Shown here: positions 18,064-31,591 of the stretch, one piece after another
How the letters are laid out: every line of letters starts with the position of its first letter
Position numbering within the stretch: the stretch's first letter is position 1
NCBI RefSeq assembly: GCF_036347055.1
Contig: NZ_CP108882.1
Span: 868,001 to 932,000, forward strand
Source of the DNA: Streptomyces sp. NBC_00820
GTDB lineage: Bacteria; Actinomycetota; Actinomycetes; Streptomycetales; Streptomycetaceae
Reading direction: 5' to 3'
DNA length: 64,000 nucleotides
Notes under the pieces: generated by a model
What the model saw: the letters and a program-made list of their open reading frames with translations, nothing else
What the model was told of the DNA's origin: nothing
Databases searched by the model: none
Position numbers and translations under genes: made by a program

Positions 18064-18504
18064 TCACCAGGCGTGTTCGGTGAAGGGGCCGGCGGTCGCC
18101 AGATAGCCGTTCAGGCCGGCCGCGGGGTATTCGATGATGTCGTCGGGCAGCTCGTGCACGGTGAACCATTGGAGCGCCTGGCATTTCTCGGGCTCCCGGT
18201 TGACCGGCTCCCCTTCCCATTCGGTGGCCTCGAAGAAGAAGCCGATCCGCTCGGTCTCCGCGTCCTGCCGGTGGTGCACGACCTGGACGAGGCGCAGCTG
18301 CGTCGGATCGGTGACGACACCTGTCTCCTCGTACAGTTCGCGGGCGGCGCCGACGGTCAGGGGCTCACCCTTGTCGAGCTTGCCCGAGGGCATGTGCCAT
18401 CGCCCGTGGCCGTAGGGGCCTCCGCGCTGGGAGAAGAGGATCTTGTCTCCGGTGCGCAGGATGACGTGCGTGTCGATGACGGGTTGTGCTGGTTCCGGGT
18501 TCAT
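18064..18504 (-). CDS. Nudix hydrolase
   Basis: 146 residues with a complete Nudix box G-x5-E-x7-REU-x-EE-x-GU: GKLDKGEPLTVGAARELYEETG at ~40-62. WHMPSGKLDKGE before it and IGFFFEATEWEGEP after it fit the NUDIX/MutT fold. The class hydrolyses nucleoside diphosphates linked to another group, using magnesium held by the Glu residues. Substrate is unknown. The ATG at 18504 overlaps the stop of a short upstream frame by ATGA, which is suggestive but not enough to call that frame a gene. Confidence 0.9.
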   Translation of the reverse strand: MNPEPAQPVIDTHVILRTGDKILFSQRGGPYGHGRWHMPSGKLDKGEPLTVGAARELYEETGVVTDPTQLRLVQVVHHRQDAETERIGFFFEATEWEGEPVNREPEKCQALQWFTVHELPDDIIEYPAAGLNGYLATAGPFTEHAW

Positions 18505-18681
18505 GTTCCTTGAGGGGCCGTTGGGACGGTCGAGGTCGTCGAGGCTATCGAGATTTCGTTGAGGGCGTCGACGATTCCGGACGCGATCCCTGCGGGTGCG
18601 ATGTCACCGCTGCCGAGGAGCGGCACGTGCACCTGCGTGGCCTTGAGGGTCTGGGCGGAGAGACGGTCGTCCTTCGCCGAT

Positions 18682-18714
18682 GCCGGCCCGGGCGTCGAGG
18701 ACGCCCGGGCCGGC
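18682..18714 (-). terminator. Strong hairpin downstream of the HhH-GPD glycosylase gene
   Basis: GCCGGCCCGGGCGTC (18682-18696) and GACGCCCGGGCCGGC (18700-18714) are perfect complements around the loop GAG: a 15-bp all-GC-rich stem. It lies 30 bp beyond the glycosylase stop (18744) on the minus strand. Confidence 0.8.
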
Positions 18715-18743
18715 AAGCAGCTCCTGCTCCTTCGGCCTCCTGG

Positions 18744-19547
18744 TCAGAAGGCGTGTGAGCCCCAGGTGAGGGTGGAGAGGGTCAGGGTGTGCAGGGCCGT
18801 GCGGTCGGGGCCGGCCATCGCGGTCCACATCGGGCCGAACGTCTTGTCCTTCGTGCCCGGCCAGGGGTGGTCGGGCGCGATCTGCGCCGCCCAGGTACGC
18901 ACGGCGAGGTCGTCGTGCGGGTAGGCGCTGAAGTCTCCGGTGAAGTCCGCTGCCGCGGCGGAGGCGGTCCACGGTCCGATCCGGGGGATGCCGCACAGCG
19001 CGGCCACCAGGTCGCCGGCTCCCATACGCCGCCAGTGCTCGGCGTGCTGCTCGTAGTGCGCGGCGGCGGCCTGCAGGGCAGTGCGATGGAATCTGGCTCC
19101 GACGGCCGCGAACTGACCCTCGTCGAGAGCCAGGACCTGTTCCGCGGTGGGGGCCACGGCCAACTCACCGTGAGGTGTGTCGACGATGGCCCCATAGGTC
19201 TCGCACCACGCGCGGTAGAGCTTGCGCGCCTGCGCGGCCCGCACCACCTGCCGGAGGACGGCAGTGGTGATCGCGTCCCACAGCGAGGGATTCGTCAGGC
19301 GCTGCGAGACTCCGAGACCGTCGAGTCCGGCTCTGAGCGCGGCGGGAACGGTGCCGGGCAGACACGCGGGATCGGTGGTGACGACCGTGGGCTTCGCGTC
19401 CTCGCCTCCCTGCACGCAGGTCATGTGCGGGCCGTCCTGGCTCCACGACACGACCCATACGCCAGAGGCCGTACGCACGGCACGCGTGCGTGTACCGTCC
19501 TCGCCCTCGTGCCAGGCAGGGTGATCGGTCGACAGAACGGTGGCCAT
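18744..19547 (-). CDS. HhH-GPD base-excision DNA glycosylase (AlkA-like)
   Basis: 267 residues. The helix-hairpin-helix appears as LCGIPRIGPWTASAAAADF near residue 185-205, and the catalytic Asp follows in DDLAVRTWA (GPD/D-x-x-x-R type). The N-terminal half is a beta domain plus a helix with LTNPSLWDAITTAVLRQVV, the AlkA-like lesion-recognition start. By family it removes alkylated or otherwise damaged bases by hydrolysis of the N-glycosidic bond. The strand is opposite to the SARP gene and they share a 650-bp intergenic region. A role in self-protection is possible but nothing here proves it. Confidence 0.8.
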   Translation of the reverse strand: MATVLSTDHPAWHEGEDGTRTRAVRTASGVWVVSWSQDGPHMTCVQGGEDAKPTVVTTDPACLPGTVPAALRAGLDGLGVSQRLTNPSLWDAITTAVLRQVVRAAQARKLYRAWCETYGAIVDTPHGELAVAPTAEQVLALDEGQFAAVGARFHRTALQAAAAHYEQHAEHWRRMGAGDLVAALCGIPRIGPWTASAAAADFTGDFSAYPHDDLAVRTWAAQIAPDHPWPGTKDKTFGPMWTAMAGPDRTALHTLTLSTLTWGSHAF

Positions 19548-20196: not shown

Positions 20197-22167
20197 ATGC
20201 CCGACCTCATCGAACTGGACTCCGGGACTCGCTGCCCGGACATCGCGGATGCGCGGGGCACGCGGGATCAGGAAGACAAGCCTCAGCCGGATGCCGTGCG
20301 GTTCTCCCTGCTCGGCCCGGTGCGGGCCTGGCGCGGTGGGACCGAGATCGCGCTCGGATCTCCGCAGCAGCAGACCGTACTGGCGGTGTTGCTGTTGAAC
20401 AACGGCGCCCAAGTGCCGACGGAACATCTTGTCCGTGCCGTGTGGGGTGAACACCCTCCTGCCTCCGGCACCAGTGTCGTCCGCACCTACATCACCCGGT
20501 TGCGCCATATCCTGGGCCCCAAGAAAAGCCTCATACGAACCCGAAGCGGTGGTTACGCTTTGTCGACCGCGCCGGAAAGCCTGGATGTGGAGCGGTTCCG
20601 GCACCTCACCGTGCGGGCCCGTGCGGCCAGGTCACAGGGTGCGATCGAGGACGCGGCCACCTTGCTGCGTGAAGCGCTGCGCATCTGGTCGGGAACCCCA
20701 CTGGCGGGGCAGAAGACCCCCTTCGCGCAGGTCCAGCGGAACGTCCTGAACGAATGGAAGATACTCGCCGCCGAGGAGTGCCTGGCGATCGATGTCGAGC
20801 GGGGCCGGCACGCACAGGCCTCGGTGGAGCTGTTCGACCTCCTCGAGACCCACCCGCTGCGCGAGCGCCTTTCCGAACTGCTGATGCTGGCCCTGTACCG
20901 CTCCGGCCGGCAGACCGAGGCCCTCGATGTCTACCGCCGTGCCCACACCGTGTTACGGCGGGAGTTGGGCGTCGAGCCCGGTCCCGGTCTGCGGACCATG
21001 CATCAGCGCATCCTGGGGGCGGACCCCCAACTGGTCGGCTCGGACGGACAGCACAAGGAGGGCCCGGCCCGCGGCACACCGGCCCGCCCCGCTGACGCCC
21101 GCAAGGACGCCGTCGTACCGCCTCCCGCGCCGCTGCCGACACTTCCCGCCCAACTCCCCCGGGACCCGGTGGCGTTCGTCGGCCGCGAGTGGGAACTGAC
21201 CCACCTGAACTCCCTGGTGTCCGAAGCCGACGGCCCGGCCGGCGCCGTGACGGTCACCGCGATCAACGGCGCGGCGGGCACCGGCAAGACCGCTCTGGCC
21301 GTCCACTGGGCACACCGGGTCGCCCATCTGTTTCCCGACGGGCAGCTCTACGTCGACCTCAAGGGCTTCAGCAGCGCTCCCGCCATCTCCCCGACCACGA
21401 CGCAGCAGGCCTTCCTCCACGCCTTGGGTATCCACCCCGCCCGGCCCCCGGAGAGCCCGGACGAATGGACAGGGCTCTACCGCAGCGCTCTCGTCCGGCG
21501 CCGAGTGCTCATCATTCTCGACAACGCGCGAGACGCCGAGCAGGTACGTGCGCTCCTGCCCGCGGCGCCGGACTGCCGCACCGTCATCACCAGCCGTCCT
21601 CCTCTGCCGACCCTCGTCGCCGCGGAGGGGGCCGCCCCGCTGACGCTGTACTCGTTGGACACGGCATCCGCGATGGAGATCATGATCCGACGGCTGGGCT
21701 CCGAGCGGGCATCCGCGGAGCCCGAAGCCCTGGAAGAGATAGTCGACCTGTGCGGCCGTCTCCCCCTGGCCCTGGCCATCGTGGCCGCCAGGGCCCAGAT
21801 CCACCCGCGGTTCCCCCTCAAGGCGATCGCGACGGAACTGCGGGCCGCCCACGGAAGCCTCGACGCCTTCACGGGCGAGGGCGACACCGACCTCCGCACG
21901 GCACTGTCATGGTCCTACCAGCAGCTCAGCGCTCCGGCCGCACGCATGTTCCGCTTGCTGTCGGCGCATCAGGGGCCCGACATCAGCGTGGCGGTCGCCG
22001 CGCGTCTCATCGGTGACAGCCCCCGCCAGGCCCACGCGTTGATCGTCGAACTCTCCCGCACGCAGATGATCCGCGAGCGCACCCCCGGCCGTTACGTCCT
22101 GCACGACCTCCTGCGTGCCTACTCCTTCGAGCTCTTCAACGAACTCGGCTCCGCGGTCGACTGCTAG
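20197..22167 (+). CDS. SARP/AfsR-family regulator with NB-ARC ATPase domain
   Basis: 656 residues. After a ~33-residue arm comes the OmpR-type DNA-binding domain (VRFSLLGPVRAWRGG, then HLVRAVWGEHPPASGTSVVRTYITRLRHIL, ~35-125) and the bacterial transcriptional activation domain (~130-275, ending VYRRAHTVLRRELGVEPGPGLRTMHQRIL). The NB-ARC ATPase follows, with a P-loop GAAGTGKTAL at ~358-366, a sensor LIILDNARDAEQVRALLP and TSRPPLPTL. It ends after a winged helix (YVLHDLLRAYSFELF) with no TPR repeats, shorter than AfsR itself. Such proteins activate antibiotic gene clusters, so it may control the peptide operon convergent to it. The TAG stop overlaps a CTAG-flanked element. Confidence 0.88.
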   Translation: MPDLIELDSGTRCPDIADARGTRDQEDKPQPDAVRFSLLGPVRAWRGGTEIALGSPQQQTVLAVLLLNNGAQVPTEHLVRAVWGEHPPASGTSVVRTYITRLRHILGPKKSLIRTRSGGYALSTAPESLDVERFRHLTVRARAARSQGAIEDAATLLREALRIWSGTPLAGQKTPFAQVQRNVLNEWKILAAEECLAIDVERGRHAQASVELFDLLETHPLRERLSELLMLALYRSGRQTEALDVYRRAHTVLRRELGVEPGPGLRTMHQRILGADPQLVGSDGQHKEGPARGTPARPADARKDAVVPPPAPLPTLPAQLPRDPVAFVGREWELTHLNSLVSEADGPAGAVTVTAINGAAGTGKTALAVHWAHRVAHLFPDGQLYVDLKGFSSAPAISPTTTQQAFLHALGIHPARPPESPDEWTGLYRSALVRRRVLIILDNARDAEQVRALLPAAPDCRTVITSRPPLPTLVAAEGAAPLTLYSLDTASAMEIMIRRLGSERASAEPEALEEIVDLCGRLPLALAIVAARAQIHPRFPLKAIATELRAAHGSLDAFTGEGDTDLRTALSWSYQQLSAPAARMFRLLSAHQGPDISVAVAARLIGDSPRQAHALIVELSRTQMIRERTPGRYVLHDLLRAYSFELFNELGSAVDC

Positions 22168-22353
22168 GGCCTTTCTTCCGGATCAGGCCGGCTCCGGTCT
22201 GCGGTGCCTTCTGGCCGGCCCGAGCGGGGTCTGGTGCGTGCAGCTGCAAGGCGGAGGAGGGAGTCGACGCGGCGCGTCGGCGACAGACGACAACGCAGCA
22301 GATGTGCGTGCCAGACCCCGCGACCCCGGCAAGATCCGGAAGAGAGGCCCTAG
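22164..22353. mobile_element. MITE-like element, copy 2 (190 bp, inverted relative to copy 1)
   Basis: Same length and near-identical to 2042-2231 but reverse-complemented, flanked by CTAG at 22164-22167 and 22350-22353. The left CTAG provides the stop TAG of the SARP gene. Removing the element with one CTAG leaves the same TGC-TAG, so the stop need not have been created by the insertion. No coding capacity. Confidence 0.78.
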
Positions 22354-22408
22354 AGGGGCGGCTCTGTCGGGGATCTCGGCGTTCGGCTGCCTGTGATCAC
22401 GGTGGCGC

Positions 22409-22445
22409 GCCGATCTCGCGGGCGCACGACGCCCGCGAGATCGGC
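22409..22445 (-). terminator. Terminator at the end of the peptide-pathway operon
   Basis: GCCGATCTCGCGGGC (22409-22423) and GCCCGCGAGATCGGC (22431-22445) pair perfectly over a 7-nt loop, ~54 nt past the radical SAM stop (22499). Being symmetric it can also stop transcription from the SARP side. Confidence 0.82.
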
Positions 22446-22498
22446 GAGGAGTGCGCGGTCCCCCGCGTGATCCGCGTCCGTCCAGGCTGTCCGGGTGG

Positions 22499-24016
22499 TC
22501 AGACGGCTGTCTTCTCGGCACTGCCGCGTGTGTGCTGTTCCCGGGTCAGGTCGGCGAGGTGGCCGCGCAGCACGGCCAGCGGAGTGTCGGCGAACTGGAT
22601 GCCGACCGAGAAGTTGAACTCGTCCCGCGCGCGCATGCTTTCGTCGGCACCCTGGTCGGTCAGGTCGACGTCGCCGTAGGCGAGCATCTGGTCCGCGTCG
22701 TGCCCGTCCTGGATGAGACGCTGCCACACCGGCGTGCCCGGGTAGGGGCGGAACTCGAACACCGAGGCGCGGAAGGTGCCCGGCAGCCGGTCGGCGACGT
22801 CCCACAACTGGTGGATGTGCCGCACGGTCGCGTCGAGGTCCTCGCGCCGTTCGCCGGGGTACCCGAGGATGAAGTACCCCTTCACGTTGATGCCCCGGGC
22901 CATGAGCCGGCCGGCCACCGACGCGGTCATCTCGGCCGTGATGCGCTTGTCCATGGACGCCAGTACCCGGTCGCTGCCGGATTCGATACCGAGCGCCACT
23001 TCGCGCAGCCCGTTGTCGGCCAGGTTGTCGAGCATGGCGTCGTCGGCGCGGTGCAGGACGTTGATCCGGCCGGTGGCGTCCCATACGTACCGTTCACCGA
23101 TCCTGTGCGCGGTGAACGCCTCCATGGAGGGCTTGATGACGCGCGCGGCGCCGAGGAACAGGTCGTCCACGAACCGGAAGGCCGTGACACCGTACTCGGC
23201 GTTGAGCGTCTCCAGTTCCTCGATGATGCCCTCGGGCGAGCGGGTACGGATCTTGATGTCGGGGTTGGCGGACACCGCCGCGCCGCAGAAACCGCAGTCG
23301 TACGGGCAGCCGCGGGAGCCGACGATGTTCGCCTCGACGCGGCCGTCGCCCGCCACGTAGGGGTCCTGCGGAAGGAACACCCGGTCGACGAGAGGCAGGG
23401 CGTCGATGTCCGGGGAGAGCCAGCGCCCGGCGTCCCGGCCCCGGGCCATCCCCACGACCGGGGTGCCCAGCAGCCGGTCGCGCCACATCACGCCGGGCAG
23501 CTCGCGGCGGCGTGACTCGTCGGCGAGCAGCGCGGCGACGCGCGGCTCGCCCTCGCCCAGCACCAGCGCGCGCAGCCGCGCCATGCGCGGGTCGGCGAGC
23601 ACACGCTCCGGCATGGCCTTGGCGTGGTGCCCGCCGACGACGAGCGCGATCCCCTCGTCCAGCCCGGCGGCGATCCGCGCGGACAGCTCGTACGTGGGCG
23701 CCAGCAGGTTCATTCCGGCCCAGCGGGGCCGGGCGGCGTTGATGATGCCGATGGTCCGCTCGATGCCGAGCCCGTGGGCCTCGGCATCGAGTATGCCGAC
23801 GTTGAATCCGGCCTGCCGGGCGTAGGTGGCGATGTAGGCCATGCCGAGCACGGGCAGCGTGTAGTCGTTCACCCGGGGACGTAGGGCGTAGTCCCGCAGG
23901 GGAGCGTTGACGAACAGAGCGTCCAGCGACCGTGCGGGATCAGCGCCCACGATGAGGTCGGCGTCCCGAAGCGGCTTCTCGGTGTTCGTCGGCGTGGTGG
24001 TTGTCAGGGCCGGCAT
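22499..24016 (-). CDS. B12-binding-domain radical SAM enzyme
   Basis: 505 residues. Residues ~30-170 form a Rossmann-like cobalamin-binding domain (LDALFVNAPL, VLGMAYIATYARQAGFNVGILDAEAHGLG, LVVGGHHAKAMPERVL). The radical SAM core follows, with C237, C241 and C244 in GSRGCPYDCGFCG as iron-sulfur ligands, and GYFILGYPGE and FEFRPYPGTPVW in the core barrel. B12-dependent radical SAM enzymes of this arrangement typically methylate unactivated carbons or phosphinates, or rearrange substrates. It is the last gene of the minus-strand operon, 105 bp after the GNAT-nucleotidyltransferase gene, with its own GGGGGAA box. Its likely substrate is the 22-residue peptide or a molecule made from it, which is an inference from position. 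Confidence 0.9.
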   Translation of the reverse strand: MPALTTTTPTNTEKPLRDADLIVGADPARSLDALFVNAPLRDYALRPRVNDYTLPVLGMAYIATYARQAGFNVGILDAEAHGLGIERTIGIINAARPRWAGMNLLAPTYELSARIAAGLDEGIALVVGGHHAKAMPERVLADPRMARLRALVLGEGEPRVAALLADESRRRELPGVMWRDRLLGTPVVGMARGRDAGRWLSPDIDALPLVDRVFLPQDPYVAGDGRVEANIVGSRGCPYDCGFCGAAVSANPDIKIRTRSPEGIIEELETLNAEYGVTAFRFVDDLFLGAARVIKPSMEAFTAHRIGERYVWDATGRINVLHRADDAMLDNLADNGLREVALGIESGSDRVLASMDKRITAEMTASVAGRLMARGINVKGYFILGYPGERREDLDATVRHIHQLWDVADRLPGTFRASVFEFRPYPGTPVWQRLIQDGHDADQMLAYGDVDLTDQGADESMRARDEFNFSVGIQFADTPLAVLRGHLADLTREQHTRGSAEKTAV

Positions 24017-24121
24017 GGTTCCCCCAGCGAGTGTGAGCCGAGTCGGTGTGTGGCGCTACGGACGGTTCGGGTCGGTGCGGCGTGGTGCGGGTGCGGGCGG
24101 GGCGATCACCGGACGAGCAGG

Positions 24122-26062
24122 TCACGGACCGGGGACAGGGGCGGCGTCCTCGAACCGCGCGGCCTCGGCCCGCGCGGCCTCGAACCGCTCCGGGTCCACC
24201 CGGTCGCTGTCCACCAGCAGATAGGCGCCGGCCGGGGTGAGCAGCAACGTGCCCGCCCCGCACTCGTGAGTGCGGGTGGTGGACTCGCCGGGGGACGGGA
24301 TCCGCACCGGGCCGAGCGGCATGCCGTACCGGGTGCGGGCGGCGGGCGGCTGCCCGGGGGCCTTCCGCCGGGCGCGTTCGCGCTCTGCGAGGTCGTCGAG
24401 TGTCCGGGTCAGCGTCTCGGGGAGGTGGCCCAGCAGTCCGCCGCGCTGGTGGGCCAGTTCCAGCAGTTCGGCCAGTTCCGGAGCCAGCCGGTACTGGTCG
24501 GCGGTCGCCGTCAGCAACTCGGGGTCCGGCATCCGTGCGGGATGCAGCAGCAGACTCGCGTCGAGCATGTCCTTGGCGTTGAAGGGCCGTTGGATCCGTT
24601 CCTCGGCGAGTGCCAGCAGGTCGGCCAGCACCTGGTCCTCGGGCAGCTTCGCCCGGATCGGCAGGGCCGCCATGTCGCCCGCGTAGCCGAAGGTGGTGAC
24701 CTCCACCCGCATCTCCGGGTCCAGCAGCGGGTCGGCGGGCTCCCAGTACGGCGCCGCCAGCAGGTGCCGTCCGGCGTCCACCGGCCGTCCGGGCTCCTCC
24801 AGCAGCGAGAGTCCCATGCCGGACACCGTCCGCTGGGACAGCACGGCGCCCACCACCCGCCACAGGGCGGCCTCGTCCGCCACGACGAGGTCCAGGTCGT
24901 TCATGGTCCGCACCACGTCGTCGGGGTACCAGCGGCGCAGCGACGGCCCCTTCACGGGGCGGACGCCCGGCTCGGCCCGTGTGCAGGTACGCAGGATCTG
25001 TTCGTACGTCTCCGCCCGTTCCCTGGCGCGGCGCAGTTCCTCGGCTGTTCCCGGACCGGGCTCGGCGCCCTCTCGCACGGCGAGCGACAGGGCCAGCGGC
25101 GCCAGGACCGGTGCGATACCGCGGGCCCGGCGCACCAGGGCCACCGGCGGCTCGTCCTCGTCCAGCTCCAGCAGGCCGTACAGCGTGGCGAGGTCGAACT
25201 CGGGAGGGGGCGAGGAAAGTTGGCGAGAGTATCGCCAGTACTCGTGGTGCGTCCGCCAGCCGTCCGCCGTCAGGGCGCCGACCACACGGTCCCCTCGCCC
25301 GCCACTCCAGTGGTGGATGACGTTGCCGATCAGCGGACGTCCGGCCGCCGCCGCCTTCTCGGCGCAGACCCGCACCAACGCCGTTGTGGCGGCGCGCCGT
25401 TCGGCCGGGCCCTCGATCAGGATGTCCACCAGGTTCACGAACGTCGTGCCGTCCACGTCGTCCCGGGCGTCGAGGAGCAGTGTGGCGTGGCCGAGCGCGA
25501 CGCCGTCCTTGTGGGCGACGAAGGAGCACCGGTCCGGTGCCGCCATCACCTCGGCGGCCTGTTCGAGAGCCGTGCCGCGCTCCACGGGGTGGCCCTGGTC
25601 GCCCGCGCCCGTCTGGAAGGCGTCGGCGAGCCAGCGGGCGAGGTCGGAGGCGTCGTCGTCGTTCGCGGCGCGCACCGCGACACCGCTGCCCTCGACACCG
25701 CTGTCCGCGACACCGCTGTCCGCGGGACCGCCACCCTCGGCACCGCTGTCCTCGGCATCGCTGTCATCCGACTTGACCACGTATGTCAGCCGCCGGGTCC
25801 ACGGGTCCGGCGGCGTGTGGTGGCCGGGGACGCGCAGCAGCACGGCGTCCGCGCCGGGGCACTCGCCGAGTACGTGGTCCGCGAAGGCGGTCAGCTGTTC
25901 CGGTGCCGTCAGCACGCCGGGGTCGAGGTGCTCGACGAGATACGACACCTCTCCGGTGAGCGCGTCGGTGTAGCGGTCGCCCACGTAGCCGAAGCCGCCC
26001 CAGCTGTGACGGACTCCGGCGCGTTGCGCGGCGGTGAGGAACTCGTCCAGTGCACTGCTCAT
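24122..26062 (-). CDS. GNAT domain fused to a nucleotidyltransferase (NTP_transf_5-like)
   Basis: 646 residues from ATG 26062. Residues ~1-90 form an unassigned domain. A Ser/Asp/Gly-rich linker (~98-128), encoded by ~15-nt repeats, leads to a GNAT-like domain (~128-280: VRAANDDDASDLARWLADAF, FVAHKDGVALGHATLLLDAR, GWRTHHEYWRYSR). Residues ~300-500 carry KGPSLRRWYPDDVVRTMNDLDLVV, where KG at 371-372 and D-L-D at 389-391 are the hallmark of NTP_transf_5 nucleotidyltransferases, a family also seen in some lasso-peptide clusters. The ATG overlaps the M16 peptidase stop by ATGA. It could acylate and nucleotidylate a peptide or resistance target; no precedent fixes which. Confidence 0.75.
   Translation of the reverse strand: MSSALDEFLTAAQRAGVRHSWGGFGYVGDRYTDALTGEVSYLVEHLDPGVLTAPEQLTAFADHVLGECPGADAVLLRVPGHHTPPDPWTRRLTYVVKSDDSDAEDSGAEGGGPADSGVADSGVEGSGVAVRAANDDDASDLARWLADAFQTGAGDQGHPVERGTALEQAAEVMAAPDRCSFVAHKDGVALGHATLLLDARDDVDGTTFVNLVDILIEGPAERRAATTALVRVCAEKAAAAGRPLIGNVIHHWSGGRGDRVVGALTADGWRTHHEYWRYSRQLSSPPPEFDLATLYGLLELDEDEPPVALVRRARGIAPVLAPLALSLAVREGAEPGPGTAEELRRARERAETYEQILRTCTRAEPGVRPVKGPSLRRWYPDDVVRTMNDLDLVVADEAALWRVVGAVLSQRTVSGMGLSLLEEPGRPVDAGRHLLAAPYWEPADPLLDPEMRVEVTTFGYAGDMAALPIRAKLPEDQVLADLLALAEERIQRPFNAKDMLDASLLLHPARMPDPELLTATADQYRLAPELAELLELAHQRGGLLGHLPETLTRTLDDLAERERARRKAPGQPPAARTRYGMPLGPVRIPSPGESTTRTHECGAGTLLLTPAGAYLLVDSDRVDPERFEAARAEAARFEDAAPVPGP
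25676..25770. repeat. Approximate 15-nt tandem repeat inside the GNAT fusion gene
   Basis: Repeated units of the form GACACCGCTGTCCGC encode the flexible linker ADSGVADSGVEGSGV. Copies differ slightly at the second half. Such repeats can change length by slippage without breaking the frame. Confidence 0.6.
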
Positions 26063-27288
26063 GCGGCCTCTCCGTCCGGTCGGACCACGGCGGTCAGTTC
26101 CTCGCACAGCCGCGCCGCCGCGTCCCGGATGTCGTCGCCGGTGACCGCTTCCAGCGCCGCGGCGGAGTCCGCCCCGTCCGGCTCGGCGGCCGACGCCGCC
26201 CCGTCCATCGCGATGCGCTGCGCGTACGCGACCGGGTCCTCGGTGTCCATCAGCAGCGCCGCCACGGCCTGGCGCCGCGCGACGGCGAGGTCGTCAGGGT
26301 CCGGCCCGTGTTCGGCCAGGTCGGTCAGGAGACGGCGTACGAGTGCGAGCACGGCCGGGCCGTTCGCGGCCTCGGTGCCGACCATGACGCGCCAGGCCCC
26401 GGTGTCGCGGTAGGCCCGCGCCCAGGCGAAGAACATGTAGGCGAGCCCCTCTTCGCCTCGCAGCCGCCGGTACAGCAGGGATGCGGGGTTCGCGCCCAGC
26501 AGGTCCGCGAGGACCGTGTACACGTGCCGCCGTTCGTCGTGGACCGCCGGGGCCCGCCCGCCGACGGCGAGCCAGCAGAAATCGTCGTCCGGCCAGCACA
26601 CCGCCAGGTCGGAAGCGAGCGGTTCCGGCGCGCCCGCGCCTTCTCCCGGCCAGGGCGGGTCCGCCGCCGGCTCGCCCAGCGGGGAGTCCGCCAGCGCCGC
26701 GCGCAGTTCCGCGTGCGGGGTGCCGCCCACGGCCGCGAGCGTCATCGGACGCCTCAGGAAACGTTCGCGGTGGGTGTCGAGCACCGTCTTGACGTCGGCG
26801 CCGAGCAGTTCGTCGCGGGTACCACCGACCGGCCGGCCCAGCGGATGTCCGGCGAAGATCCGGCCGAGGAACGCGTCCTGCACGACGTCACTGGGGTCGG
26901 CCGCCGCTGCGGCCAACTCCTGCAGGACGACCTTCCGTTCGCTCTCCAGCGCCTCTTCGGTCAGGACCGGGCGCAGAACCGAACGGGCGAGCAGTGCGGC
27001 GACCTCGGGGGCGTCCCGGTTGAGCACCCGGACCTGGAACAGCATGCGGTCCAGGCCGGTGGTCGCGTTGGCGCTGCCGCCGAGCCGCTGTACGTACTCG
27101 ACGAGTGAACAGCCGCCGGCCGTCGGGGCCGACATCAGGAGATGCTCCATGAGGTGAGCGGTTCCGCCGCCCCCGGGCGGGTCATGGCGCGATCCGAAGT
27201 CCACCGCCAGGCACAGGCTGGTGGTGCGCCAGTGGTCCTCGGCACGTCCCAGCAGCGTCGCTCCGCCGGTCAGTCGGTACTTCTCCAC
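26059..27288 (-). CDS. M16-family zinc metallopeptidase
   Basis: 409 residues from GTG 27288, chosen because GGGAGGG lies just upstream; the frame upstream codes for low-complexity sequence. The zinc motif HxxEH is HLMEH at 45-49 in GTAHLMEHLLM, and the third ligand region is ESERKVVLQEL (E117/E124, ~75 residues later as in the family). The rest holds the second M16 homology domain (RRLRGEEGLAYMFFAWARAY). It fits the PqqF/PqqG and AlbE/AlbF group, which trims peptide precursors in cofactor and sactipeptide pathways. The gene directly follows the 22-residue peptide gene and overlaps the next gene by ATGA. Most likely it removes the leader or digests the modified peptide. Confidence 0.88.
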   Translation of the reverse strand: MEKYRLTGGATLLGRAEDHWRTTSLCLAVDFGSRHDPPGGGGTAHLMEHLLMSAPTAGGCSLVEYVQRLGGSANATTGLDRMLFQVRVLNRDAPEVAALLARSVLRPVLTEEALESERKVVLQELAAAAADPSDVVQDAFLGRIFAGHPLGRPVGGTRDELLGADVKTVLDTHRERFLRRPMTLAAVGGTPHAELRAALADSPLGEPAADPPWPGEGAGAPEPLASDLAVCWPDDDFCWLAVGGRAPAVHDERRHVYTVLADLLGANPASLLYRRLRGEEGLAYMFFAWARAYRDTGAWRVMVGTEAANGPAVLALVRRLLTDLAEHGPDPDDLAVARRQAVAALLMDTEDPVAYAQRIAMDGAASAAEPDGADSAAALEAVTGDDIRDAAARLCEELTAVVRPDGEAA

Positions 27289-27309
27289 GGATCCCGCCCT
27301 CCCCCCTCG

Positions 27310-27343
27310 TCGTCCATCGATCCCGGTCGTCCATCGATCCCGG
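27310..27343. repeat. Perfect 17-bp tandem repeat, two copies
   Basis: TCGTCCATCGATCCCGG occurs twice head to tail (27310-27326 and 27327-27343) between the peptide-gene hairpin and the M16 peptidase start. Its role is unknown; it could bind a regulator or be a slippage product. Confidence 0.85.
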
Positions 27344-27359
27344 TCGCCCGGCGCGGCAG

Positions 27360-27393
27360 GTGCCGCCGCGGACAAGTACGCCCGCGGCGGCAC
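27360..27393 (-). terminator. Attenuator-like hairpin after the peptide gene
   Basis: GTGCCGCCGCGG (27360-27371) and CCGCGGCGGCAC (27382-27393) pair perfectly over a 10-nt loop, 20 nt beyond the stop of the 22-codon gene. A partial terminator here would let the peptide be made in excess over its processing enzymes, as in many RiPP operons. Confidence 0.8.
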
Positions 27394-27412
27394 ACGGATG
27401 GCGCTCGGTGAC

Positions 27413-27481
27413 TTACGCCTTGTCGCCGACCTTCACCTTGTCCAGTCGCGGGCGAAGCCCGGTCGCGTGGTTGCGCTCCAT
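27413..27481 (-). CDS. Putative 22-residue precursor or scaffold peptide
   Basis: ATG 27479-27481 to TAA 27413-27415. The peptide starts MERNHATGLRP and ends LDKVKVGDKA; net charge is basic, with Arg at 3, 10 and 12, Lys at 15, 17 and 21, and Asp at 14 and 20. It has no Cys, Tyr, Trp or Ser and only one Thr. An unusually good ribosome site (AGGAGGGG, 6 nt before ATG), the hairpin 20 nt after the stop and its place before an M16 peptidase, with ABC exporter genes upstream and a radical SAM gene downstream, mark it as a real short gene. Size matches PqqA (22-29 residues), but the Glu/Tyr pair of PqqA is absent. It is probably a RiPP precursor or a carrier peptide. Confidence 0.7.
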   Translation of the reverse strand: MERNHATGLRPRLDKVKVGDKA

Positions 27482-27584
27482 CGAAATCCCCTCCTCTCCC
27501 TGTCCGTTACGGCCCGGCGGCAGGTAGCGCCGGGAGTCTGTGCGGCCGCAGCGGGGTGCGGCGCGTCCCGTGATGCCGGTGGGC

Positions 27585-28400
27585 TCACGAGGTGAACTCG
27601 ATGGAACCGTCGCGCCGTCCGCGTTCGACGAGCCGGTGCACGGCGAGCACGGCCAGCGCCAGCCACCCGGCCCCCACCACCAGCCCCAGCGCGGCGGGAC
27701 CGGCCACCGCGTCCGCCGAAGCGCCGGACAACAGGCGTCGTACGGCTCCGAGTTCATGGGTGAGCGGGAGAACGTCGGCGACCGCGCGTACCGGCCACGG
27801 CCAGAAGTCCTGCGGCACCTCGACGCCACAGATCGCCATCATCACGAGGAACGACGCGTTGGCGGCGACATTGCGCAGCGACGGGAAGCCGAGCACGACA
27901 GTCGCCACGAAGAGCCCGAAACAGTAGGTGGACACCGAGGCGCAGGCGATCAGCGGCAAGGCGGCCAGTGCCGTGCGTGCCGACAGGCGCACCCCGAAGG
28001 GCGACAGCAGCAGGCAGAAGGCGACGAACGAGGTGGCCGTACCGCTGAGCAGCCACTGCACACCCCGCCCGGACAGTACCCACACCGGATTCGCCGGGCC
28101 GGCCACCAGCAGGGGCAGCGTCCCCGACCGGCGTTCCCAGGCGCTGGAGGCGACCACCATCATCGCCTCGATCGCGCACACCGCGACCGCGTTGCCCACG
28201 ACCAGGAACTTCGCGTCGGCCCCGGGGCCCAGCACGGTCGCCGAGACGGCGAAGAACAGCACCTGGCACACCATCCGGGCCAGCCAGCCGAAGGTCCATG
28301 ACCACCAGGTGTGGATCGCCCGCAGATCCGCCAGGCCGTTGACGGCCCCGCAGCGCAGGGCCCGCGCCGCGGCGGGTACGGAGTCGGAAACAGTGTTCAT
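27585..28400 (-). CDS. ABC-2 type permease subunit (second)
   Basis: 271 residues with about six hydrophobic helices (e.g. MVCQVLFFAVSATVLG, AVAVCAIEAMMVVASSAW, ALPLIACASVSTYCFGLFVATVVLG, FLVMMAICGVEVPQDF). WERRSGTLPLLVAGPANPVWVLSGR is the ABC-2 intracellular signature loop. It pairs with the permease at 28397-29176 to form the exporter channel for the operon's product. ATG 28400 overlaps the previous stop by 4 nt (ATGA). A 103-bp gap with a 7-bp-stem hairpin (27513-27534) separates it from the peptide gene. Confidence 0.85.
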   Translation of the reverse strand: MNTVSDSVPAAARALRCGAVNGLADLRAIHTWWSWTFGWLARMVCQVLFFAVSATVLGPGADAKFLVVGNAVAVCAIEAMMVVASSAWERRSGTLPLLVAGPANPVWVLSGRGVQWLLSGTATSFVAFCLLLSPFGVRLSARTALAALPLIACASVSTYCFGLFVATVVLGFPSLRNVAANASFLVMMAICGVEVPQDFWPWPVRAVADVLPLTHELGAVRRLLSGASADAVAGPAALGLVVGAGWLALAVLAVHRLVERGRRDGSIEFTS

Positions 28401-29176
28401 ACCAGGGCCACCGTTCCGGTAGCGCGTACCCGGGCCAGGACCGTACGGAAGGCGAGCAGAGCGACCCCGTACCAGACAAGACCGAGCAGTACGGTGGCCG
28501 CCAGCCGACCCAGCGGGTGGGGCACCGGCGCCGCCGCGACCGAGCGGCGCAGCAGGTCGGCGGACCAGGACAGGAAGAACAGCCGGCTCAGCGGCCGCAC
28601 CCAGTAGGGCATCGCGCTGACGGGCACGGTGAGTCCGGCGAGCAGGTACAGCGGATAGCTCAGCGCGTTCTGGAACACCCGGGCCGAGCGTGCCAGCACG
28701 AAGCCGGCCGACATCAGACAGGCCGCGCACGTCAGGGCGAACGACGTCGCCACCGCCCCGGCGGCGAGCAGGAAGGGATGGTGGACGGGCGGCCAGTCGC
28801 CGGCCACCAGCGCCGAGGTGCACCAGCACTCCACGATGGCGGCCAGGCTGACCCCGGTGACGGCGGCGATGCGCGCGGTGGTCACCACCGCCATCCCGGC
28901 CGGGGCCGCCACCAGCAGTTCGAGCGTGCCGTCGAAGCGGTCCTGGGCGACCAGGTCGCCCGCGGTGAGCAGCGCCATGGTCCACAGCGAGATCAGTACC
29001 GGCACCACGACCGCGTACCCCAACGTCTCCTGGCGGCCGGAGTGTTCGGCCATCGCCGTGAAGATCAGCGTGTAGAGGGGAGCGGTGAACAGCGGTTGCA
29101 GGCTGCCGGGCGAGCGCAGCAGCAGTGTCGCCTGGAGCCGGAAGGCGGCCCGCGCGGCGGTGAACGAGCCGGTCAC
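28397..29176 (-). CDS. ABC-2 type permease subunit (first)
   Basis: 259 residues, ~6 transmembrane helices. DRFDGTLELLVAAPAGMAVVTTARIAAV is the conserved ABC-2 coupling loop, and YLLAGLTVPVSAMPYWVRPLSRLFF is the family's GLTVP-x-x-x-LP block. GTG 29176 overlaps the ATPase stop by GTGA. With the second permease and the ATPase at 29173 it would form a heteromeric exporter, likely for the modified peptide product. Confidence 0.88.
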   Translation of the reverse strand: MTGSFTAARAAFRLQATLLLRSPGSLQPLFTAPLYTLIFTAMAEHSGRQETLGYAVVVPVLISLWTMALLTAGDLVAQDRFDGTLELLVAAPAGMAVVTTARIAAVTGVSLAAIVECWCTSALVAGDWPPVHHPFLLAAGAVATSFALTCAACLMSAGFVLARSARVFQNALSYPLYLLAGLTVPVSAMPYWVRPLSRLFFLSWSADLLRRSVAAAPVPHPLGRLAATVLLGLVWYGVALLAFRTVLARVRATGTVALV

Positions 29177-30120
29177 CCGCCCACCTCCATCCCGCGCCCT
29201 CCGACGAGGTCGAGATACATCTCGGCGAGGTTCGGCCGTACGACGGCGACACGGGTGACGTCCGCGTCCACCAGCCGCCGCAGTACCTCGCGGGCGCTGC
29301 GGTCGTCGTCGACGGCGATCCGCGCCACGGCGTCCGGGTGGTGTTCGATGCCCCGCACCCCGGGGAGGCGGCGCAGTTCGGCGAGGACGGCGGTGGGGGC
29401 GTCCACCGCTTCCACCCGCTGGTGCCCGGCGGCCCGTTCACTCAGGGTGCGGGGACTGTCGGTGGCCAGTACCCGGCCGCCGTCGATGAGTGTCACCCGG
29501 GCACACAGCGCCTCGGCCTCGTCCATGTCGTGGGTGGCCAGCAGGACGGTGCGCCGCTCTCGCCGCAGTTCCTCGATGATGGTCCTGAACCCGTGTGCCG
29601 CGACCGGGTCAAGGCCGGCGGTCGGCTCGTCCAGGAGCAGCACAGGCGGGTCGTGGACGATGGCACGGGCCAGGTGCAGACGCTGCTTCATGCCCCGGGA
29701 GAACGTCTCGGCCCGGTCGTCCGCGTGGCCGGACAGGCCCACCCGCTCCAGGAGCGTCGTCACCCGCGCATCCAGGACGCGGCCGCTCAACCCGTACAAC
29801 GCACCCCAATAGCGCAGGTTCTGCCGGGCCGACAGCCTGCCGTACAGGCCGCGGTCGCCGCCGAGGGAGACTCCGATCAGCGACCGTACGGCGGTGGTGG
29901 CGGTGGCCACGTCCCGGCCCATGACGCTCGCGGTGCCGGAGGTGGGAAGCAGCACCGTGGACAGGATCTTGCAGAGCGTGCTCTTGCCCGCGCCGTTCGG
30001 CCCGAGCAGCCCGTGCACCTCGCCCTCCGGGACTTCGATGTCGATGCCGTGCAGCGCGACCTTCTCGGCGGACTTCCGGACGAACGTCCTGCGCAGGCCC
30101 CGGGTGCTGATGGCGTTCAC
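29173..30120 (-). CDS. ABC transporter ATP-binding protein of the peptide operon
   Basis: 315 residues. Walker A GPNGAGKST, Q-loop region LIGVSLGGDRGLYGRLSARQNL, signature FSRGMKQRL (SRGMK variant of LSGGQ, usual in ABC-2 drug/peptide exporters), Walker B VLLLDEPTAGLD and H-loop ATHDMDEAEAL are all visible. The last ~75 residues form the C-terminal accessory domain. It powers the two permeases encoded downstream. GTG 30120 overlaps the BioD/CobQ-like stop by 4 nt, so the operon is tightly coupled. Confidence 0.92.
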   Translation of the reverse strand: MNAISTRGLRRTFVRKSAEKVALHGIDIEVPEGEVHGLLGPNGAGKSTLCKILSTVLLPTSGTASVMGRDVATATTAVRSLIGVSLGGDRGLYGRLSARQNLRYWGALYGLSGRVLDARVTTLLERVGLSGHADDRAETFSRGMKQRLHLARAIVHDPPVLLLDEPTAGLDPVAAHGFRTIIEELRRERRTVLLATHDMDEAEALCARVTLIDGGRVLATDSPRTLSERAAGHQRVEAVDAPTAVLAELRRLPGVRGIEHHPDAVARIAVDDDRSAREVLRRLVDADVTRVAVVRPNLAEMYLDLVGGRGMEVGG

Positions 30121-30977
30121 TCGGCCGCCACCGCCTCGCGGTCTCGTACGGAAAGGTCCAGCCCGAGCCGCTCCAGCAGCCCGGAGCGGACCACGTTGCG
30201 GGCTGACCGGTCATAGACCGGCTGGAGTTTCTCCGGGGTTCCGTCGTAGCCGTCGGGGAGCAGCGCCTCGGGCAGGGTGGCCAGCAGCGGGAAGTCCGAG
30301 CCCCGACGGGTCCTCTCGGCGGTGGCGCGGGCGTGTTCGGCGTCGCGTACCTGGTTGAGCACATGGCCGCGTACGAGCCGCAGCAGTTCCGGCGCCACCA
30401 TGTGCCGTACGCCGGCCAGCGCGGTGACATGCCCGGAGCGAGCCGCGTTGACCACGAGCATCACGGGCGGACCGGCGGAGACGGGCGCGAGGTGGTTGGC
30501 CAGATCGTGCTCGGGGTCCAGTTCGCCCACCGCGCCCGCGCCCTCGATCACCAGCTGGGCCGCCGGTCCCTGGCGCAGCGCCTCCTGCACCGCGTCGGCG
30601 CACCTCGCGTGCAGCCGGGGTGAGATGCGGTGCAGGTCGATGCTGTCCTGCCCCCGGATGGGGACGTCACCGGCCGGAACACCGCACAGGAACAGTTCGC
30701 CTTCGTGGCGCCGCTGCGGGTCGGGAACCACCGTGACCGGGTTGTGCCACCACTGCGGACGGACGCGGGCTGAACCGCAGTTGTGCAGTGCTCCGCGCAG
30801 CGGGGCCGGCACGTCCGGATAAGCCGGATCGTCGGGATCCACCACGGCAACGGCCTTGAAGGGCTTGACCGGAACTCCGCGATCGGTGAGTGCGCGCAGG
30901 ATGCCGCCGGAAACGCTCGTCTTACCGGAGCCCGCGGACACCCCCAGTACGGTCACTCCCCGCCATCGCGTATGCAA
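30117..30977 (-). CDS. BioD/CobQ-like P-loop ligase domain protein
   Basis: 286 residues from TTG 30977 (an AGGGTGGG site precedes it; a later GTG would cut into the P-loop). TVLGVSAGSGKTSVSGGILRALTDRGVPVKPFKAVAVVD matches the opening of dethiobiotin synthetases and cobyric acid synthase N-domains, P-loop at 12-21 and the PFK-A substrate loop. LVIEGAGAVGELDPEHDLANHLAPV is their second block, where a conserved GAGG-x-x-x-x motif orders the carboxylate. No glutamine amidotransferase domain follows, so it may activate a carboxylate with ATP and join it to ammonia or another amine. Substrate unknown. It leads the operon, ahead of transporter and peptide genes. Confidence 0.72.
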   Translation of the reverse strand: MHTRWRGVTVLGVSAGSGKTSVSGGILRALTDRGVPVKPFKAVAVVDPDDPAYPDVPAPLRGALHNCGSARVRPQWWHNPVTVVPDPQRRHEGELFLCGVPAGDVPIRGQDSIDLHRISPRLHARCADAVQEALRQGPAAQLVIEGAGAVGELDPEHDLANHLAPVSAGPPVMLVVNAARSGHVTALAGVRHMVAPELLRLVRGHVLNQVRDAEHARATAERTRRGSDFPLLATLPEALLPDGYDGTPEKLQPVYDRSARNVVRSGLLERLGLDLSVRDREAVAAE

Positions 30978-31306: not shown

Positions 31307-31591
31307 TCAGTGACCCGAACCGGACGGAAGCACCGCCAGTGCCTCGTGAACGTCCACCGATCGGCATGCACCGGTAGCGCTGTGCACCGCGATGCAATTG
31401 GGGCCATAGAGGTAGTACTTGTCATCGCCGGTGGTGATGTAGTCAACGGACTGGTAGAAGAAATAGAAGGACCCACCCTTCGGGATCTTGGCCCTGCCCT
31501 CCTGGATCAGGGCGACATCGCACTCCCATCCTGCGGACTCCTGTCGGAGAAATCCGGCCGCGAGCTGCTCCGCCTGCTCCATCGTGTACAT
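31307..31591 (-). CDS. YrhB/Imm35-type immunity protein
   Basis: 94 residues from ATG 31591 (GAGGA 9 nt upstream). MEQAEQLAAGFLRQES and the block GGSFYFFYQSVDYITTGDDKYYLYGPNCIAVHSATGACRSVD match the YrhB/Imm35 family, small proteins that neutralise cognate nuclease-type toxins. Its ATG overlaps the TGA of the toxin-tip remnant by one base (TGATG), the coupling expected of a toxin-immunity pair. It may be functional without a toxin as an orphan immunity gene. Confidence 0.72.
   Translation of the reverse strand: MYTMEQAEQLAAGFLRQESAGWECDVALIQEGRAKIPKGGSFYFFYQSVDYITTGDDKYYLYGPNCIAVHSATGACRSVDVHEALAVLPSGSGH

Follow-up and report, generated by a model that had tools for sequence, protein, structure and literature searches.

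A short peptide with a nearly invariant motif recurs with a shared set of core genes and changing accessory enzymes in gene clusters of Streptomycetaceae

The window analyzed here is a stretch of 64,000 nucleotides from Streptomyces sp. NBC_00820 (contig NZ_CP108882.1, positions 868,001 to 932,000), and our subject is a cluster of genes on its minus strand that surrounds a gene for a 22-residue peptide. The initial annotation described eight same-strand genes, four of whose junctions overlap by 4 nt, and all eight open reading frames and all four overlaps (30117/30120, 29173/29176, 28397/28400 and 26059/26062) are present where it placed them. The run begins with a BioD/CobQ-type P-loop protein (30117-30977, starting at TTG 30977 or GTG 30956), followed by the DrrA-like ATPase of an ABC exporter (29173-30120; ABC_tran, 48-63% identity to homologues in peptide clusters) and by two ABC-2 permeases, the first (28397-29176) recognized by PF01061 (ABC2_membrane) and PF12698, the second (27585-28400) below the Pfam cut-off with homologues behind permease 1 in other clusters. 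The gene for the peptide MERNHATGLRPRLDKVKVGDKA (27413-27481) lies in the middle of the operon behind a strong ribosome site, AGAGGAGGGGATT, as had been proposed. A hairpin directly 3' of it (27360-27393; -33 kcal/mol, z -4.5, equalled by none of 200 shuffles) separates it from the gene for an M16 peptidase, a single unit of about 410 amino acids (26059-27288, best start GTG at 27288; PF00675/PF05193). Next come a putative GNAT domain (residues about 1-281) fused to NTP_transf_5 (about 282-646; 24122-26062, PF14907) and, set off by 105 nt from this preceding gene, a B12-binding radical SAM enzyme with the motif CPYDCGFC (22499-24016). The hairpin that ends the run (22408-22446, z -4.6, equalled by 0 of 200 shuffles) had been called a perfect 15-bp terminator; the hairpin is real, and its stem is longer, with 17 Watson-Crick pairs and one G-U. 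Pfam bears out the domain names first given: AAA_26, ABC_tran, ABC2_membrane, Peptidase_M16, NTP_transf_5, and B12-binding with Radical_SAM. A called gene of 94 residues (31307-31591, minus strand) lies just upstream of the BioD-like gene.

A search of 295 Streptomyces-genus genomes with the fusion protein gave matches in 21, the window's own included. Seventeen of the other 20 were fetched as 20 stretches of up to 20 kb, and the three with the weakest best scores (G034, G044 and G272) were left out of the full-length fetch; here and below, L numbers denote fetched stretches and G numbers genomes. A short frame like the window peptide was present in 10 of the 17 fetched genomes. A profile of eleven peptides, run on 392 genus genomes, then matched 15 with E values of 1.5e-5 or lower, the next match being at 0.0027. 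A 13-row profile, run on 394 family genomes, matched 14 at E <= 0.001; these belong to 4 of 17 genera, and three of the 14 genomes were already known. A phylum-wide search (396 genomes in 236 genera) gave two matches at E <= 0.001, both in the window's genus. With the genus and family profile searches combined, the peptide is found in 26 Streptomycetaceae genomes, including the window's, and the expectation of finding these genes in other genomes together with an alignable frame for the peptide was borne out.

Because the copy in L172 is cut by a contig end, 25 peptides are complete. They are 19-23 residues long and follow the pattern H-x3-[LM]-R-P-R-L-x-K, in which Met1, His, R-P-R-L and Lys are invariant (25/25); Asp precedes the Lys in 23, with Glu in its place in L170 and Gln in L171. 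The C-terminus is the most variable part, ending in Ala in the window and in A, R, N (L093 only), K, G, T, H or E across the family. Among 22 distinct coding stretches, a count that leaves out L171 and L172, the R, P, R and L positions each use two or three codons with the amino acid unchanged; His, Lys and Asp use one codon each and are uninformative on codon conservation. The gene starts with ATG in all 25, and a listed ribosome-site motif precedes it in 24 (L168 has a G-run only). A strong hairpin stands within 70 nt behind the stop codon at every complete locus (z -2.6 to -7.2 against 100 mononucleotide shuffles each), and nine peptide loci together with the terminal hairpin gave z -3.55 to -6.83 against 200 dinucleotide shuffles. 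The next called same-strand gene encodes an M16 peptidase in 24 of the 25, the exception being L092. The gap in profile scores and the codon pattern rule out a chance short frame. These results show that the peptide is real and has its own gene, ribosome site and hairpin, so that the cluster, like those of ribosomally synthesized and post-translationally modified peptides (RiPPs), holds a dedicated peptide gene. That it defines a conserved system of Streptomycetaceae we consider very probable.

M16, GNAT and exporter genes are present in 24 of the 26 clusters, in varying gene order, and NTP_transf_5 in 23 (none in L144, L172 or the fetched stretch of L162; that of L101 was detected by tblastn). 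The conserved core is the peptide, the M16 peptidase, GNAT, NTP_transf_5 and the ABC-2 exporter. In G111 the exporter ATPase is known only by tblastn at the edge of L097, and NTP_transf_5, next to a second M16 gene, is separated from the peptide by about 21 kb. The two cluster-type M16 genes of this genome (L097:1857-3035 and L098:9790-11013) are about 20 kb apart, one with a recognizable peptide and one without. L144 retains the peptide, a shortened M16 gene and accessory genes, with GNAT, NTP_transf_5 and the exporter absent within its stretch, and looks like a cluster in decay. L144 (G167) and L145 (G299) encode an identical peptide and have accessory genes in common. The cluster in L172 ends at the contig end. 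A group of proteins of about 400 residues occurs in six stretches (L101, L162, L170, L171 and L097/L098, the last two showing the same gene); in L101, L170 and L171 it lies directly ahead of the exporter ATPase, the slot of the BioD-like gene in the window, and its L101 member has no Pfam match.

In the M16 peptidases, the zinc motif HxxEH and two downstream Glu residues are invariant in all 15 sequences aligned. The NTP_transf_5 half of the window fusion scores 33.4 bits against the PF14907 cut-off of 31.2, and of four relatives encoded as split genes one scored above the cut-off and three below; K-G, Y-P, R and D-x-D are invariant in 12 of 12 aligned. In the other 25 clusters GNAT and NTP_transf_5 are separate genes wherever both are seen. 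The name GNAT-nucleotidyltransferase given in the initial annotation is supported for the second half by Pfam, which recognizes nothing in the GNAT half; there the support comes from structure prediction. The model of this half (predicted local distance difference test, pLDDT, 90.7) matched tandem-GNAT proteins, the best being VipF (template modelling score, TM, 0.53), and a GNAT fold is predicted. Sequence relatives of the GNAT half also occur in Kitasatospora, Lentzea, Amycolatopsis and Saccharothrix (39 proteins among the matches listed). Streptomyces NPDC026672 and NPDC057900 encode relatives of the fusion (85% and 70% identity) and of the radical SAM enzyme (95% and 88%), and from the equal lengths of the contigs that carry the two genes we infer that they are linked in both. 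Four further stretches (L107, L108, L109 and L111) represent a second cluster type, whose ABC exporter is similar (54-56% identity) and which encodes an NTP_transf_5-like protein; neither an M16 gene nor an H...RPRLDK peptide was found in it. L107 also encodes a weakly NDK-like protein and a phosphodiesterase-FemAB-like fusion, and L109 an M28 peptidase, a methyltransferase-aminotransferase fusion and a PP-loop protein.

Two genes featured in the initial annotation, those for the B12 radical SAM enzyme and the BioD-like protein, proved to be accessory. A search with the radical SAM enzyme gave 71 loci, 65 close (61-81% identity) and six distant (25-29%), and tblastn at E 1e-4 found no BioD, permease, peptide, M16 or GNAT-NTP gene in any of the 71 stretches; some gave a match to a generic ABC ATPase. 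The close loci carry a protein of about 277 residues ahead of the radical SAM gene (53 loci) and a thymidylate kinase (37, one of which, L060, aligns to the radical SAM enzyme too) and a NUDIX hydrolase (35) behind it. A gene matching at E 1e-200 was found in four of 100 sampled relatives' genomes, the window's own included. In a tree of 55 proteins, the window enzyme forms one clade with P0005 and P0006 (100/99) inside the Streptomycetaceae branch of the cassette, which fits one recruitment. By identity and by its place in the tree, the window radical SAM enzyme belongs to a separate actinobacterial cassette family. This widespread cassette (L001-L063, L066 and L070) combines a glycosylase of OGG1/AlkA fold, a B12 radical SAM enzyme, a thymidylate kinase and a NUDIX hydrolase, sometimes adds MazG, and may show fewer members at individual loci. 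Its gene mix suggests the making or policing of a modified nucleotide and, resembling nucleotide or nucleobase chemistry, suggests that the radical SAM enzyme acts on a nucleotide rather than on the peptide.

In the fetched surroundings of the 26 peptides, genes that align with the radical SAM enzyme occur in L167 and G111 (L097/L098) alone, at 23-27% identity, and a BioD-like gene in the window and L167 alone, so neither was retained as part of the core. The window BioD-like protein scores 33.6 bits for PF13500 (AAA_26; cut-off 27), aligns to the CobQ model over the first 198 of its 480 positions only and has no sequence match in the PDB. Its relative in L167 (6060-6887, 44% identity) occupies the same position. 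Among the other clusters, L167 (G1014) alone repeats the window order of BioD-like, ABC, permease, permease, peptide, M16, GNAT, NTP; it adds a radical SAM/SPASM protein, TauD and a distant B12 radical SAM enzyme (27% identity, B12 domain below the Pfam cut-off). It is also the only other one of the 26 clusters with relatives of both genes. The shared order and the extra genes support a functional BioD-like/radical SAM subtype.

Downstream of the terminal hairpin lie two further genes that the initial annotation had missed (18064-19547) and that resemble members of the cassette. One (18744-19547, minus strand) encodes a protein 73% identical to the cassette protein of L017. It has no Pfam match at E 0.01; by profile it matches a 3-methyladenine DNA glycosylase in the PDB (E 7e-8), and the top fold matches of its model (pLDDT 94.6) are of OGG1 type, which identifies it, on predicted fold, as an HhH-GPD-like glycosylase relative of OGG1/AlkA type. 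The other (18064-18504, minus strand) is a NUDIX hydrolase (PF00293, 73 bits; 81.5% identity to the cassette NUDIX of L017). The cluster probably extends down to 18064; the eight genes first described stand, and as a unit they appear incomplete, with the radical SAM gene apart from the rest. The order of the cassette, with the glycosylase directly ahead and the thymidylate kinase behind, does not hold in the window. Between the terminal hairpin and these genes lies a probable SARP-type regulator on the plus strand (20197-22167; BTAD and NB-ARC), whose gene group is found in 17 of 28 analyzed stretches, L092 and L146 showing the same gene; in the L168 member Pfam finds HTH and NB-ARC domains and no BTAD. 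A segment lying between the regulator and the terminal hairpin, at about 22164-22353, looks like a repeated intergenic element; read on the minus strand, it begins CTAGGGCCT and ends AGGCCCTAG.

Around the constant core, the accessory enzymes differ widely from cluster to cluster. JmjC_2 proteins occur in three clusters, YcaO with TfuA in L163 (homologues in L164), and an EPSP-synthase-like protein in L162 (homologue in L097). L093 encodes PPDK, His_Phos and ARMT1-like proteins, and the same gene groups recur in L100. Other genes are of nucleotide type. Pfam finds an NDK-like protein in L094, and similar proteins (26-32% identity) occur in L096, L099, L142 and L166, two of which were scanned by Pfam and not named. 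Pairs of dCTP deaminase-like genes are present in L096 and L166 (in the latter, one by scan and the other by homology), a uridine-kinase-like/HAD gene in L099, and a guanylate-kinase-like gene with AdoHcyase in G101. Thymidylate kinase accompanies NUDIX in L145, its homologue L144 and L165, and occurs in L103 and L172, where NUDIX was not found. A nucleotide-type enzyme is present in at least 12 of the 26 clusters (window, G101, G271, G110, G095, G323, G024, G167, G299, G933, G909 and G993). This is a lower bound, since L143, L168, L169, L170 and parts of others are hardly annotated, and it counts G323, where the sole evidence is a resemblance to the NDK-like protein. The accessory genes speak for a nucleotide-type payload no less than for a modification of the peptide itself. 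The RiPP analogy first drawn, of a peptide modified, partly digested and exported, stays conjectural; the initial interpretation is supported in that other genomes, too, keep the peptide with an M16 peptidase, GNAT/NTP_transf_5 proteins and an exporter.

Each of the 26 genomes has one strong match to thymidylate kinase (PF02223), which we took for the housekeeping gene; 15 additional matches were found. Five of these 15 lie within 10 kb of the peptide, where 0.033 would be expected (binomial P 1.6e-10, a value that flatters the association as related genomes are not independent, G167 and G299 having the same peptide).

Several clusters carry genes like those for aminoacyl-tRNA synthetases. Lysyl-tRNA synthetase (LysRS)-like genes are found in L094 (class II) and L096 (30% identity to the L094 gene) and a methionyl-tRNA synthetase (MetRS)-like gene in L099. 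G095 and G323 each have an additional, divergent MetRS-like gene, about 30% identical to the other copy; in G271, nothing but the L094 LysRS-like gene matches at E 1e-10. A prolyl-tRNA synthetase (ProRS) gene beside L163/L164 was considered as a self-resistance gene, a reading weakened by the lack of any other ProRS match at E 1e-20 in G853; G856 has one further partial match (204 residues, 76%). Extra synthetase-like genes would fit products that target these synthetases, and the evidence is mixed.

The explanation that we favor as a whole, and judge evenly balanced between right and wrong, is a modular system centred on the peptide, with swappable enzymes and, in the window, a payload of nucleotide type. 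A constant peptide with changing enzymes is better explained by a shared handle or carrier than by a RiPP modified in its core. The peptide would be the constant part, a carrier or delivery handle, and the changing accessory enzymes would build the payload. For the window we propose that a modified nucleotide is made or cleaned up by the B12 radical SAM enzyme together with the NUDIX hydrolase and the glycosylase-fold protein, and that the BioD-like P-loop protein would activate it. NTP_transf_5, which keeps D-x-D and is the strongest candidate to link peptide and payload, might then couple a nucleotidyl group to the peptide. GNAT would acylate or aminoacylate, M16 would trim the peptide, and the ABC pump would export the product. 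We lean slightly towards a constant peptide with a variable payload; a nucleotidyl linkage of that payload to the peptide is a tentative proposal that we hold less likely than its alternatives taken together.

Several observations weigh against this reading. Both the product and the site of coupling are hypothetical, and the peptide's Arg, His and Lys could themselves be modified. NTP_transf_5 has no match among solved structures in the PDB. Without a control, the count of nucleotide-type enzymes in 12 of 26 clusters proves little, and thymidylate kinase, the only family given a genome-wide control, was chosen after it had been sighted in the clusters. Among their scanned genes, L098, L101, L162, L163/L164, L167 and L171 have no nucleotide enzyme; the genes of such clusters are JmjC, 2-oxoglutarate (2OG)-oxygenase, EPSP-synthase-like, YcaO/TfuA, radical SAM/SPASM or glycosyltransferase genes, which implies that some payloads are not nucleotides. 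It is 3 kb from the terminal hairpin to the glycosylase and NUDIX genes, which stand behind the reversed SARP gene, and their membership in the window cluster is uncertain. The only match to PF02223 in this genome is far outside the window, so the thymidylate kinase of the cassette is missing. Finally, PsmN, a protein annotated as a nucleotidyltransferase, yields a hexose-bearing peptide in the account available to us (PMC9266682).

Comparison with known systems places the cluster in no described class that we found, in agreement with the initial annotation. Its three-part logic of short precursor, nucleotidyltransferase and exporter is that of microcin C-like (mcc) clusters, whose minimal set, in the part of the source consulted, comprises a short precursor (21 residues in Nocardia vaccinii), a nucleotidyltransferase and an exporter, with a GNAT immunity enzyme in some clusters (PMC9239234). 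Microcin C, however, uses the ThiF-like MccB and the C-terminal Asn of its precursor, whereas the eight window proteins have no ThiF match and NTP_transf_5 instead, the window peptide ends in Ala, and Asn is not conserved in the family; the system here also has an M16 peptidase and a constant peptide motif.

Pyrroloquinoline quinone (PQQ) and mycofactocin derive from precursor peptides of about 20-30 residues, to which the window peptide may be likened, and the PQQ pathway (PqqA/PqqF) shares with it an M16-family peptidase; the window M16 protein is weakly PqqF-like (42.7 bits, cut-off 320). Both pathways use a SPASM radical SAM enzyme and PqqD, neither of which Pfam finds in the eight window genes, as the initial annotation had noted for PqqD. 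The window radical SAM enzyme has a B12-binding domain and no SPASM, although L167 does have a SPASM protein; in addition, the peptide here lacks a Glu/Tyr pair, and its accessory genes vary. In pseudomycoidin, from a lasso cluster with a kinase and a nucleotidyltransferase (PsmK/PsmN), a nucleotidyltransferase-annotated protein acts on a ribosomal peptide, a likeness by description; PsmN, the closest experimentally tested example on such a peptide that we met, is reported, in the part of the source consulted, to install a hexose or possibly a nucleotidyl group (PMC9266682). Lasso pathways use an Asn-synthase-like cyclase and a lasso peptidase, both absent from the eight window genes; among the scanned genes of the other clusters, Asn_synthase occurs only in L172, as two genes in that contig-end cluster.

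OxsB (oxetanocin) and AlbB (albucidin) are B12 radical SAM nucleoside enzymes, set by description beside the window enzyme, whose own setting is probably of nucleotide type. Oxetanocin has the HD-domain partner OxsA, and no HD protein is among the eight window genes. At E 0.001 the window enzyme matched only the apramycin oxidoreductase 6fd2 (E 4e-12) and 9ccb among solved structures. Three specific candidates were set aside: albucidin, whose gene set, as far as the source was available, does not fit (PMC7074753); biphenomycin, which has JmjC and B12 radical SAM in common and differs in its other enzymes, likewise on a partial view of the source (PMC12707348); and a link to sinefungin through a GNAT relative in S. 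incarnatus, for which the portion of PMC10491745 consulted gives no cluster description and nothing else spoke. No description of the peptide motif or gene set was found in the open-access literature, most subscription papers lying outside this scope, and the system is apparently undescribed.

Of the alternatives, the one that survives best, possible and still doubtful, is a pathway in which a small molecule is built on the constant peptide and freed by M16, leaving a product with little or no peptide, by the carrier logic of 3-thiaglutamate or of amino-group carrier proteins. It would account for a constant peptide amid varying tailoring enzymes and for M16 being the gene most tightly tied to the peptide. 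It would also suit the aminoacyl-tRNA-dependent Sba18 and Sbb17, which rank 7 and 27 in the GNAT fold search, and the extra divergent MetRS-like (L099) and class II LysRS-like (L094) genes in the cluster runs. Yet the Pfam scans of cluster genes gave no LanB-like peptide aminoacyl-tRNA ligase (PEARL) and a single ATP-grasp-type domain, PPDK_N in L093, which we take to belong to the ATP-grasp clan, and neither type of ligase is among the eight window genes. Moreover, growth usually takes place at the C-terminus, where the peptide varies most.

An ordinary RiPP, in which residues of H...RPRLDK are modified by JmjC, radical SAM, YcaO or similar enzymes and the remainder serves as leader and follower, we consider unlikely. 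JmjC relatives hydroxylate Arg or His, and the JmjC_2 proteins in three clusters, YcaO with TfuA in two (the second by homology) and radical SAM/SPASM in one all speak for it. In the biphenomycin RiPP cluster, to judge from part of the source, a JmjC protein is the reported ornithine hydroxylase (PMC12707348). Against it stand the lack of SPASM and PqqD-type domains by Pfam in the eight window genes and a motif that is nearly fixed despite differing tailoring enzymes, a situation in which the core of a RiPP would usually vary.

Less probable by far is a peptide signal, an exported and M16-trimmed pheromone sensed by neighbouring TPR regulators (SARP-NB-ARC-TPR and HTH-TPR). The SARP-type gene group in 17 of 28 stretches and an HTH-TPR group in L162, L165 and L167 (by Pfam on L162 only) are consistent with it, but SARP genes are common in Streptomyces gene clusters and Pfam sees no long TPR tract in the window's 656-residue regulator. 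Signals usually diverge between species, which this peptide does not, and many accessory enzymes would be left unexplained. That the peptide is a leader controlling the M16 operon by attenuation, as a short gene with a strong ribosome site and a hairpin immediately before M16 might suggest, is highly improbable and is disfavoured by L092, since in L092/L146 the peptide and its own hairpin stand alone (no called same-strand gene follows the L092 peptide, the nearest in L146 is 1.8 kb off behind a regulator, and 6.4 kb separate the peptide from the M16 gene, which is on the opposite strand), and since the core genes are rearranged around the peptide.

A bolder form of the favored modular system, which we regard as a doubtful conjecture, is a ThiF-independent class of peptide-nucleotides in which a nearly invariant peptide handle carries swapped nucleotide payloads and the window's glycosylase and NUDIX either guard the producer or finish the nucleotide; if so, the MetRS-like and LysRS-like genes would mark aminoacyl-tRNA synthetases as targets. 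If the modular system is borne out, a single profile of 20 residues would find a whole set of cryptic Streptomyces clusters with differing chemistry and would illustrate the use of a single constant peptide for many payloads. It would also give functions to NTP_transf_5, to a GNAT group that Pfam does not recognize and to single-unit M16 peptidases, and the function of the actinobacterial B12 radical SAM/glycosylase/NUDIX cassette would become testable.

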